Position numbers and translations under genes: made by a program. Below are positions 9,048 to 18,734 of a stretch of 36,767 nucleotides of DNA, one piece after another. Each line of letters opens with the position of its first letter. The first letter of the stretch is position 1. Where the stretch lies: positions 1 through 36,767 of the forward strand of contig JACWAJ010000004.1 in assembly GCA_014874355.1 (NCBI GenBank). Reading direction: 5' to 3'. Origin of the DNA: a bacterium (GTDB lineage: Bacteria; Chloroflexota; Dormibacteria; Aeolococcales; Aeolococcaceae). The notes beneath the pieces are model-generated. The model had not been told where the DNA came from. It saw only the letters and a program-made list of their open reading frames with translations, and made no database searches.

Positions 9048-11501
<2,454 letters not shown>

Positions 11502-11503
11502 GG

Positions 11504-12544
11504 TCAGATGATCCCCTGCGCGCGTGGCTCAGCCATGTGGGCGAGTTCCTGAGTGATGACGCCACTGACGTTCTTGCGAGTGGCCTGGAGTGCGATACGG
11601 ATGGCGTTCTTTACAGCCAGCGCGTCGGAGCGCCCGTGGGCGATAACCACCTCTCCGACCACGCCAAGGAGCAATGCCCCGCCGGTGTGACGGTAGTCGA
11701 CACGATCGCGGATGGCCCGCAGGCGCGGCTTGAGCAGCAGCCCCCCCAGCTTGCCCGGCATCGATTGCAGCGCCTCCTGGCGCAGCGTCGTGAAGAGGTA
11801 CTCCCCGACGCTTTCGGCCGTCTTAAGCACCAGGTTACCGACAAAACCGTCACAAACCGCGACGTCGACCGCCCCCTGGAACAACTCTTTGGCTTCAACG
11901 TTGCCCAAGAACTCGACGGGAGCCGCCTCCAGCAGTGGGTACGCATCCTGGATCAGTTGCGATCCCTTGCCAGGCTCCTCACCGTTGCTGAGCAGGCCGA
12001 TTCGTGGCTTCTCGATGTCCATCATGGTCCGCGCGTAGACACCGCCCATCACGGCGAACTGCACCAGCCACTCGGCCCGGCAGTCCGTATTGGCTCCGAT
12101 GTCGAGGACGAAGCTCTCGCCACGCAGAGTGGGGAAGCGAGCGCCGATCGCGGGTCGGGCCAAGCCCGGGATCCGCTTGAGCGCAAACAAGGCGGCGGCA
12201 AGTGTCGCCCCACTGTTGCCTGCCGACACGGCAGCCGAAGCCTCGGATGCAGCTACGAGCTGGCAAGCACGCACCACCGACGAGTCCTTCTTGGCGCGGA
12301 CCGCGGCGGCGGGGTGTTCCCCCATTCCCACCACTTGCGTGGCGTCGACGATATGGATGTGGGCGCGCGCCGCACTCTCGGCACCTTCGACGTGACGCAG
12401 TTCGCGCTCCAAGGCATCGCGCCGTCCCACGAGGGTGACCTCGCAGTTGTAGTCGAGCGCGGCCTGGAGCGATCCGCGAACGATCTCGCCGGGTGCATTG
12501 TCGCCGCCCATGGCATCGACGGCTATCGGTAGGTCGGCACGCAT
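11504..12544 (-). CDS. plsX: Phosphate acyltransferase PlsX
   Basis: From ATG 12544 the 346-aa protein begins [20 protein letters not shown], the hallmark PlsX N-terminus. It continues with [57 protein letters not shown] and a C-terminal [20 protein letters not shown]. PlsX converts acyl-ACP to acyl-phosphate for PlsY, the first step of phosphatidic acid synthesis in most bacteria; it is soluble and membrane-associated. plsX normally sits with rpmF or fabH/fabD. Here it lies between gyrB (13 nt upstream) and gyrA (2 nt downstream), so it must be co-transcribed with gyrase. An in-frame extension to 12667 overlaps gyrB and is rejected. Confidence 0.97.
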
Positions 12545-12557
12545 GGCAGACACCGTC

Positions 12558-14639
<2,082 letters not shown>

Positions 14640-16143: not shown

Positions 16144-17823
16144 ATGCCCCCAACGCCTCCGGCATGGTTTGATACCGTCTCTGACCTGACCTGGCGCCTC
16201 GTGGCGATCCGCAGCGTCAGTCCCGGCGAGGGCGAAAACGAAGTCGCCCGGGGTGTGATCCAAATGCTCACCGAAGGTGGCCTCGAAGAGGCGTACACCT
16301 CGATTGGGCTGGACCCGATCGTCGGCGATGCCACTGGACGTCACAACGCCTACGCCTGGCTCCGCGGTCAGAGCGCTCGCACCGTTGTCCTACTCGGCCA
16401 CATCGACACCGTCGACACCACCGACTACGGCCAACTGGAAGCGTACGCGTGCGATCCCGATGCCCTCGACCGGCGTATTGAGAAGCTCGCCGCCCTAACC
16501 CCCGATCTTGCGGACGACCTCTTGGCCCACCCGGGCGACTGGGCTTTCGGCCGTGGGATTCTTGACATGAAGAGCGGTGACGCCGCCAACATCGCGGTCA
16601 TGCGCCGGCTTGCGGCGCTCCATCGCACCGGCGAACTGCCGCTCTCCATCGTCCTGCTGGCCTGTCCCGACGAGGAGAACGAGTCCGCCGGCGTGTTCCA
16701 GGCGGTGCGCTTCCTGCTGCGCCTGCGCGAAGAGCACGGTCTCGACTACGTCGGTTGCATCAACACCGACTACACCACCTACCGCCACCCCGGTGATCCC
16801 AACCGCTACGTCTACACCGGCAGCATCGGCAAGCTCCTGCCCACCTTCCTTGTTGTCGGGCAGGAATCCCACGTAGGCGACCCGTTCAATGGCGTGGACG
16901 CCAATCTGCTGGCCGCCGAATTGATCCAAGACTTCAGCATGAACCCGGAACTCTGCGACTTCGTACGCGGACAGGTCACCCCGCCACCGGTCACGCTCAA
17001 GTCCACCGACCTCAAAGTCCGCTACAACGTCCAGATCCCATTCGCCGCGTACTTCTACCTCAACGTCCTCACCTTCGACACTGGCCCGGGGGCGCTTCTC
17101 GACCGCCTGTGCGAGCGTTCCAGAGTCGCGCTCCGCCACACCCTTTCGCGCATCGACGCAGCCGAACGCGCTTGGCGCCAGCCCCTCGAAGATGCGCCCA
17201 CCCCACGGCAGGAACCCCGTACCGGCGCAGTCCTCACCTATGCCGAGTTGTACGCGACCGCCGTGGAGAAAGTGGGGCTGGATCTGGTCACCGCCGAACT
17301 CGACGCCGAGTGGTCGCGCCGGCCCGCCGACCTCGACAAGCGTGAACGCTGTTTGCATCTCGTCTGGCGCCTCTGGACGCTGTCCGGCGGGCACGGTCCC
17401 GCAGTCATCCTCTACTACTCCCCGCCCTACTATCCCAGCGTCCCGGCAGTGGCTTCTCCGCTCCACGAGGCCGTGGCCGGGGTGGCCGCCGCCCACCCCG
17501 AGCTGAAACTGAAGGTGGCGGAGTATTACCCCTTCCTCTCGGACATGAGTTACCTGCGACTAAAGCCGGACACGGACCTCACTGCGCTCACCGTCAACAT
17601 GCCCATCTGGCAAGACCGTGCCGACCAGCCCCGTCCCGGCGCCTACTCGCTCCCGCTGGCCGGCATCGCCGCACTCGACCTGCCCGTCATCAACATCGGG
17701 CCCTACGGTGCCGGTGCCCACCAGCGCGGCGAACGCGTGCTTGCGTCCTACTCGTTCGGAGTGCTGCCCCAGATCATCTACGAAACCATCTCGGCACTCG
17801 GGAGCCCCCGCCTCCCCGCTTGA
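16144..17823 (+). CDS. M20 family zinc metallohydrolase, RocB-like
   Basis: This 559-aa protein has the di-zinc M20 pattern: LLGHIDTVD (His86, Asp88), GRGILDMKSGDAAN (Asp141) and ACPDEENES with the catalytic-base/ligand Glu pair (177-178). A lid-like region from about 200 to 450 includes a conserved-looking VTPPPVTLKSTDLKVRYNVQ. The length and motif spacing fit the RocB subfamily ('arginine utilization protein'), about 540-560 aa, rather than the 400-aa ArgE/DapE enzymes. RocB's substrate is not firmly known. A Shine-Dalgarno site overlaps the upstream stop (TAGGAGGG, 16131-16138), so expression is coupled to the CpgS-like gene. That suggests a shared substrate or product, not arginine breakdown in isolation. 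Confidence 0.88.
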   Translation: MPPTPPAWFDTVSDLTWRLVAIRSVSPGEGENEVARGVIQMLTEGGLEEAYTSIGLDPIVGDATGRHNAYAWLRGQSARTVVLLGHIDTVDTTDYGQLEAYACDPDALDRRIEKLAALTPDLADDLLAHPGDWAFGRGILDMKSGDAANIAVMRRLAALHRTGELPLSIVLLACPDEENESAGVFQAVRFLLRLREEHGLDYVGCINTDYTTYRHPGDPNRYVYTGSIGKLLPTFLVVGQESHVGDPFNGVDANLLAAELIQDFSMNPELCDFVRGQVTPPPVTLKSTDLKVRYNVQIPFAAYFYLNVLTFDTGPGALLDRLCERSRVALRHTLSRIDAAERAWRQPLEDAPTPRQEPRTGAVLTYAELYATAVEKVGLDLVTAELDAEWSRRPADLDKRERCLHLVWRLWTLSGGHGPAVILYYSPPYYPSVPAVASPLHEAVAGVAAAHPELKLKVAEYYPFLSDMSYLRLKPDTDLTALTVNMPIWQDRADQPRPGAYSLPLAGIAALDLPVINIGPYGAGAHQRGERVLASYSFGVLPQIIYETISALGSPRLPA

Positions 17824-17824
17824 C

Positions 17825-17924
17825 TTATCCACGCGTTCTCCCCACACCAACGATCTTGTCCGTGTGGATCAGGTGTGGATAATTGGGGATAACCGGGAAA
17901 CGTATTCGGAATATCCGGGATATT
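17825..17924. other. DnaA-box-like cluster with AT-rich dyads
   Basis: Four 9-mers close to the DnaA box TTATCCACA sit in 68 bp between convergent genes: TTATCCACG (17825-17833, plus), TGATCCACA (17871-17863, minus), a perfect TTATCCACA (17882-17874, minus) and TTATCCCCA (17892-17884, minus). Next come the AT-rich dyads TATTC-G-GAATA (17903-17913) and AATATC-CGG-GATATT (17910-17924), which could serve as an unwinding element or a factor site. The layout resembles a small oriC or a DnaA-titration locus. dnaA and dnaN are not in the window. No intrinsic terminator is obvious here. Confidence 0.5.
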
Positions 17925-17936
17925 GGGCTCGTGCCT

Positions 17937-18734
17937 TTATGCGGCCGCAAGTAACTCCGAGACCACCCGAACATAGCGACGCGTGTCGTCGTAGACGCCA
18001 TTGCGTGTGATGGAGGCATCGCCCTGGTAGTAGGCTGCCAGCGCCGCCCCATTGTCGCCGTTGTGAACGGCCAGCAGGTGGCGAATCAGGAGCGCCCCGG
18101 CGGCGACGTTGTCGCTCGCGAGATGAATGTCCAGGCGGCGTCCGGCCAGGTAGCGAGACACCCACTCGCCGGCGAAGGGTTCCAACTGCATGATGCCCAC
18201 CGCACCCGTTGCGGATATGAGGTTCTGCTGCCAGCCGGATTCCATCCAGGCCACCGCCGCTACCACGTCTGCGTTTACGCCTACTCGATTAGACACCTGG
18301 GTCAACAACGCGTTGACGCGACCCAGGCGACCGGGCACGTGGAGGATGGCGCCCGGTTCGAGGTGCTCGTTGACCCCGATGCCGTTGGTTCGGGCGAGCA
18401 CAGTGGGGTCCACACCAAAGTAGCGAGCCACCTGGAAGAGTTGCTCCCCGTCGCCAACCGTATGCAGGTCGATGTCATGACTCTCACTCGTGTATTGCGG
18501 CAGGCTCAGTGCCTGAGTGGGAATCTGCAACATCTGCCCGGCCCGCAGCGCAGCAGCATCGGCCAGGTGGTTGGCTTCCGCGATTGCTTCAACGGTTGTG
18601 GCGTGGCGAACGGCAATTTCACTGAGGCTGTCGCCAGGACGCACGACATATGTCGAGGCACTGACCGCAAGCGGCGTGGCGACAACCGCTGTCGCGCCAA
18701 GTGCCGCTGCTGCCAAGCGAGTGCGGGAGGACAT
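17937..18734 (-). CDS. Secreted LysM-domain lytic transglycosylase (SLT/lysozyme-like)
   Basis: At 265 aa it has a signal peptide (residues 1-26, cleavage after AVSA) and LysM 1 at about 28-72 (TYVVRPGDSLSEIAVRHATT). LysM 2 follows at about 89-134 (LHTVGDGEQLFQVARYFGVD). The C-terminal lysozyme-like SLT domain contains the catalytic Glu in AAVAWMESGWQQN, followed by SATGAVGIMQLEP and AALAAYYQGD, the standard motifs. It would bind peptidoglycan through LysM and cleave the glycan strand to 1,6-anhydro-MurNAc. The mature enzyme is extracytoplasmic. It is monocistronic, ends convergently against the M20 gene, and is preceded by a potentially structured leader at 18768-18869. Confidence 0.93.
   Translation of the reverse strand: MSSRTRLAAAALGATAVVATPLAVSASTYVVRPGDSLSEIAVRHATTVEAIAEANHLADAAALRAGQMLQIPTQALSLPQYTSESHDIDLHTVGDGEQLFQVARYFGVDPTVLARTNGIGVNEHLEPGAILHVPGRLGRVNALLTQVSNRVGVNADVVAAVAWMESGWQQNLISATGAVGIMQLEPFAGEWVSRYLAGRRLDIHLASDNVAAGALLIRHLLAVHNGDNGAALAAYYQGDASITRNGVYDDTRRYVRVVSELLAAA

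Follow-up and report, generated by a model that had tools for sequence, protein, structure and literature searches.

Sites that sequester DnaA or recycle it have been characterized in detail in Escherichia coli and are known in a few other bacteria. Clusters of DnaA boxes outside oriC act as datA (inactivation), as DARS (reactivation) or as titration sites (PMC5742627). E. coli datA is a non-coding cluster outside oriC whose essential boxes point one way; it needs at least 183 bp, with boxes 2 and 3 flanking a site for IHF (PMC5742627). The cores of DARS1 and DARS2 are sets of three boxes in non-coding DNA, of which boxes II and III share an orientation and box I is reversed (PMC5742627). Chromosomal clusters away from oriC in Bacillus subtilis and Streptomyces coelicolor, likened to datA, restrain initiation, as far as the account of the cited work in PMC5742627 goes. 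E. coli boxes are concentrated near the origin, which is consistent with titration (PMC12371093), and E. coli DnaA in vivo binds mainly paired boxes with a gap of 2 or 3 bp, the “double DnaA box,” and a wider gap abolishes binding (Stringer et al. 2024, PMC11317965).

The site described here lies in a window of 36,767 nucleotides, the whole stretch of DNA that was analyzed, from a member of “Ca. Aeolococcaceae” (“Ca. Dormibacterota”), a family of soil bacteria with Aeolococcus, Amunia, and Changshengia among the named matches. A preliminary description had reported four near-consensus DnaA 9-mers within 68 bp, one of them perfect and three in one orientation, followed by two AT-rich dyads and set between convergent genes. 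Direct reading together with box scoring, using a matrix hand-set from the TTATCCACA/TTWTNCACA consensus, found five such 9-mers at 17825 to 17892, and the remaining particulars agreed: one box is perfect, three lie on the minus strand, both dyads are present, and an M20-type peptidase gene converges with a LysM-SLT gene (Table 1). The boxes are spaced at 11, 27, 11, and 10 bp, so that boxes 1 and 2 and boxes 3, 4, and 5 form two tandem arrays in which neighboring boxes are separated by 1 to 3 bp and, being approximately one helical turn apart, face much the same side of the DNA. Boxes 1/2 and 3/4 each share an orientation with a 2-bp gap, as in the double DnaA box, and boxes 3 and 4 gave the best double-box score in the whole window.

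Table 1. Features of the box-bearing spacer and its flanking genes (window positions)
Feature	Position	Strand	Sequence or remark
M20-type peptidase gene	16144..17823	+	convergent neighbor; its place is taken by a DDAH/deiminase-like gene in most relatives with boxes
DnaA box 1	17825..17833	+	TTATCCACG, 1 mismatch
DnaA box 2	17836..17844	+	TTCTCCCCA, 1 mismatch to TTATCCMCA; 11 bp after box 1
DnaA box 3	17863..17871	-	TGATCCACA, 1 mismatch
DnaA box 4	17874..17882	-	TTATCCACA, perfect; 11 bp from box 3
DnaA box 5	17884..17892	-	TTATCCCCA; 10 bp from box 4; third of head-to-tail triple
Imperfect inverted repeat	17825..17882		21-nt arms, 17825-17845 and 17862-17882, 76% complementary; made by the two arrays
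Two overlapping AT-rich dyads	17904..17924		ATTCGGAAT at 17904-17912; AATATCCGGGATATT (AATATCC-G-GGATATT) at 17910-17924
LysM + SLT lytic transglycosylase gene	17937..18734	-	3' spacer box-bearing in four genera

The expectation that such a density would be improbable in random DNA was borne out, as 200 dinucleotide shuffles of the window never placed more than three boxes in 68 bp (and three only once), compared with the five observed. The genome holds 257 matches at ≤1 mismatch to TTATCCMCA, and given that count, five boxes within 68 bp are expected ~2e-6 times per genome. Perfect copies of TTATCCACA number five in the genome. The pattern TGTGGA-N3-33-TGTGGA is found in this spacer, twice in the spacer between dnaA and dnaN, once in a long open frame on contig C46, and nowhere else in this genome.

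The conservation check that had been proposed came out positive, with boxes recurring at the SLT spacer of relatives in four genera. Tandem DnaA boxes at an 11- to 12-bp pitch lie just downstream of the SLT gene, whose homologs are 55 to 63% identical across the family, in 11 of 29 family loci. The bearers belong to genera g1 (this genome), g6 (four), g9 (one), and g12 (five), a count that mixes several loci per genus, and loci within one genus are not independent. In a scan for same-orientation boxes at this pitch, 10 of the 11 bearer loci scored above all 1,586 control windows drawn from the same 29 loci, and the eleventh (L060) above all but one. Scanning without the spacing condition returned the same sites, with pairs at 11 to 12 bp except in L060, where one box passed; a stricter search pattern missed most sites. 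Since the cluster exceeds every shuffle and the pairs of the relatives beat the control windows, a chance origin was rejected. The array is thus denser than chance and conserved in place, as would be expected of a titration-class site.

The outcome of the scan was two-state, a strong pair in 11 loci and nothing notable in the SLT spacer of the other 18, which include all six g5 loci. Because boxes are missing from 18 of the 29 loci, the site is not essential to the family. On a tree of the SLT gene, the bearers are scattered, with at least four changes on well-supported branches, a pattern that fits ancestry plus losses or repeated gain. Loss is visible in L072, from which a stretch that surrounds the boxes in its relative L052 is missing. 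AT-rich dyads were not seen in the SLT spacers of relatives, where the boxes are kept.

As judged by its sequence, the conserved unit is a putative head-to-tail array of ~30 bp in which two strong boxes are usually joined by a third, weaker one. Its pitch is 10 to 12 bp for the double box and then 9 to 12 bp, and the gap between the paired boxes is 2 to 3 bp in the 11 bearer loci. With the first box as the common reference, C[AC]CA cores occur at offsets 6, 17, and 26 in each of the five g6/g9 loci; most g12 loci have them at 6, 18, and then 27 or 30, and the array of this genome at 6, 16, and 27. A third C[AC]CA follows 9 to 12 bp further on in most bearer loci. The spacers of two g6 loci, L055 and L065, align to those of relatives only when reversed (26 invariant columns versus 10 unreversed), indicating that a small inversion flipped the whole spacer with its internal spacing kept. 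This retention of boxes and spacing suggests that the site does not need one particular orientation. An ATCAMGAA motif (TATCACGAA or TATCAAGAA) that resembles half an IHF site lies ~35 bp from the start of the first box in L051, L055, and L065, and it has been kept through the inversion.

Compared with the known systems, the array shares with datA, which stimulates DnaA-ATP hydrolysis, its head-to-tail boxes in non-coding DNA outside oriC but is far shorter. The IHF consensus WATCAANNNNTTR has no match in the window, and the array boxes, only 1 to 3 bp apart, leave no room for a site between them; the missing IHF site argues that the array is not datA. The site in this genome resembles DARS in having boxes in both orientations, but the unit conserved among relatives has a single orientation, which argues against assignment to DARS. 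The B. subtilis and S. coelicolor clusters belong to other phyla and loci, and their function was tested, whereas the array here is known from sequence. The array has the form of the double DnaA box, since a pitch of 11 to 12 bp is the 2- to 3-bp gap needed for E. coli DnaA to bind a box pair (PMC11317965); several E. coli double boxes lie upstream of genes, while the array described here follows a 3' end.

The preliminary description had offered a displaced oriC as one reading, observing that neither dnaA nor dnaN was nearby. The observation was accurate. A single dnaA is present in the genome (G000; 76 contigs, 98.8% complete). It lies on contig C51 with dnaN directly after it; dnaN was recognized by eye from its reading frame. 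At 1.45 Mb, the genome is possibly reduced relative to similarly complete relatives (2 to 4.4 Mb). The displaced-origin reading itself was not sustained. The dnaA-dnaN spacer has tandem TTNTCCACA-type boxes, with TGTGGA boxes numbering three, as well as additional box-like sites, and its AT content reaches 62 to 68% over one stretch, compared with 54% AT at best in the flank of the cluster. The suggested GC-skew check, which here compares two contigs of a fragmented genome (C51 and the contig of the window), showed a change at dnaA-dnaN from -0.07 on the left to approximately +0.06 over the next 20 kb (noisy further right) and no change at the cluster (-0.038 on the left, -0.043 on the right). 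GC skew was too weak for use in relatives G022, G008, and G014, even at dnaA. A second or displaced replication origin, or the remnant of one, therefore appears extremely improbable: the cluster does sit beside a moderately AT-rich flank, but the oriC-like spacer is on C51, the skew does not change at the cluster, and the short SLT spacers of relatives hold little besides boxes. In two g5 genomes, both without boxes there, the SLT spacer is 134 to 137 kb from dnaA.

The genes around the spacer do not account for the boxes. A tie to the M20 gene was rejected, as this gene has matches in just 2 of 61 genomes (that of the window and one of another family) and boxes occur without it. A tie to the DDAH-like gene, which lies across the spacer in most bearers, was likewise rejected, as g14 and g3 have this gene but no boxes, and this genome, L052, and L077 have boxes but not the gene. 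In the latter two loci, the gene across the spacer is a periplasmic-binding gene read in the same direction as the SLT gene. Since the boxes stay in place beside a DDAH-like, an M20, or a periplasmic-binding gene, the site does not follow its neighbors. Both gyrB and gyrA were correctly placed within 9 kb of the cluster; their proximity looks incidental, because gyrB lies 3.6 to 6.6 kb past the SLT gene in the two relatives that have both on one stretch and does not adjoin the boxes. The gene order is gyrB-plsX-gyrA at 9048 to 14597 of the window, and plsX also lies between the gyrase genes in L057 (G018).

The boxes lie where two 3' ends converge, in most cases no more than 60 bp past the SLT stop codon. 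This position raises the main rival explanation, in which DnaA on the array would act as a roadblock, terminating transcripts from the SLT gene and from the gene that converges on it. DnaA has been reported to block RNA polymerase in E. coli (PMC11317965), a search around the spacer of this genome yielded nothing like an intrinsic terminator, and the two arrays there face both directions. We nevertheless consider a roadblock unlikely, because the orientation of the array relative to SLT varies among g6 genomes, the boxes of L052 and L077 lie 181 bp past the SLT stop codon and before a same-strand gene, and many related spacers have no boxes. The boxes might instead overlap a promoter, with DnaA regulating a transcript that starts in the spacer, such as an antisense RNA into SLT. 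One sigma-70-like sequence does overlap the boxes (17856 to 17883, plus strand, 9 of 12 positions), but 0.2 such matches are expected by chance in the region, the spacers of relatives are mostly ~45 to 90 bp between two 3' ends, and the window has no Rfam match, which leaves this explanation distinctly improbable. Even less probable is a conserved intrinsic or bidirectional terminator hairpin that mimics DnaA boxes. A long imperfect hairpin is possible in this spacer, but folding z-scores ranged from -1.6 to +0.4 across ten tests, the conserved boxes are tandem rather than inverted, and the region has no terminator-like stem followed by a T-run. On these grounds, and given the lack of an Rfam match in the window, an intrinsic terminator or RNA structure was rejected.

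Searches of 61 genomes from the family, order, and class bear on the identity of the site. The double-box pattern had 18 matches, compared with 1 for a reversed control. Ten of these are in dnaA promoters, four in the SLT spacer, two overlap at a triple perfect array in one g12 genome (G027), and two lie outside the family, so that family-wide the pattern recurs at just two places, the dnaA promoter (10 genomes) and the SLT spacer (4 genomes). A CCCCA-box variant gave six matches, three of them in g6 SLT spacers, and none in controls. The pattern most often matches the dnaA promoter, where a site for DnaA autoregulation is to be expected, and the SLT spacer; this is good evidence that the latter, too, is a DnaA site.

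We therefore favor the other reading in the preliminary description, a DnaA-titration site, which is plausible and became better supported once boxes were found to recur in four genera and neighboring genes failed to explain them. The cluster at 17825 to 17892 is probably an extra-oriC DnaA-binding array for DnaA homeostasis, either a sink (titration) or an assembly site; both DnaA binding and a role in titration or control are what we infer. DnaA would bind the array cooperatively as a head-to-tail dimer or trimer, and the array would tie up DnaA, or alter its nucleotide state, away from oriC. Duplication of the site would then be predicted to affect initiation timing. More tentatively, the array might represent a compact, ~30-bp, three-box DnaA-control element of Dormibacterota whose 11/12 + 9 bp geometry is fixed and which does not depend on IHF, tolerates inversion, and keeps a single chromosomal address for reasons unconnected with the genes beside it.

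A literature search of partial coverage found no paper on DnaA boxes in Dormibacter. What is new here is the conservation of the array in place and spacing across genera. Conservation of such a site among genera of an uncultivated phylum would point to widespread control of DnaA outside oriC, and the array provides a simple search signature, namely, a double box in a conserved place that is not a promoter. The inverted spacers and changed neighbors also provide a natural experiment, one that distinguishes a function of the DNA site from a part in transcription of neighboring genes.

Box arrangements were also seen elsewhere in these genomes. In the dnaA promoter of this genome, a plus-strand box and a minus-strand box lie 22 bp apart, and a layout of plus then minus boxes at 11 and/or 22 bp (L001:920-950 and L130 to L158) is common to dnaA promoters of the family and a sister family. 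Two g14 genomes, whose SLT spacers have no boxes, carry four boxes upstream of a small gene (L016:1222-1307 in G013 and L017:56-141 in G018). In G027, three perfect copies of TTATCCACA at an exact 12-bp pitch (L014:716-748) lie on a small contig, at neither dnaA nor the SLT gene. Another g12 genome, G017, has a three-box array of TTATGCACA, TTTTCCCCA, and TTATCCACA away from dnaA and SLT (L194:1300-1331), which might correspond to the G027 site.
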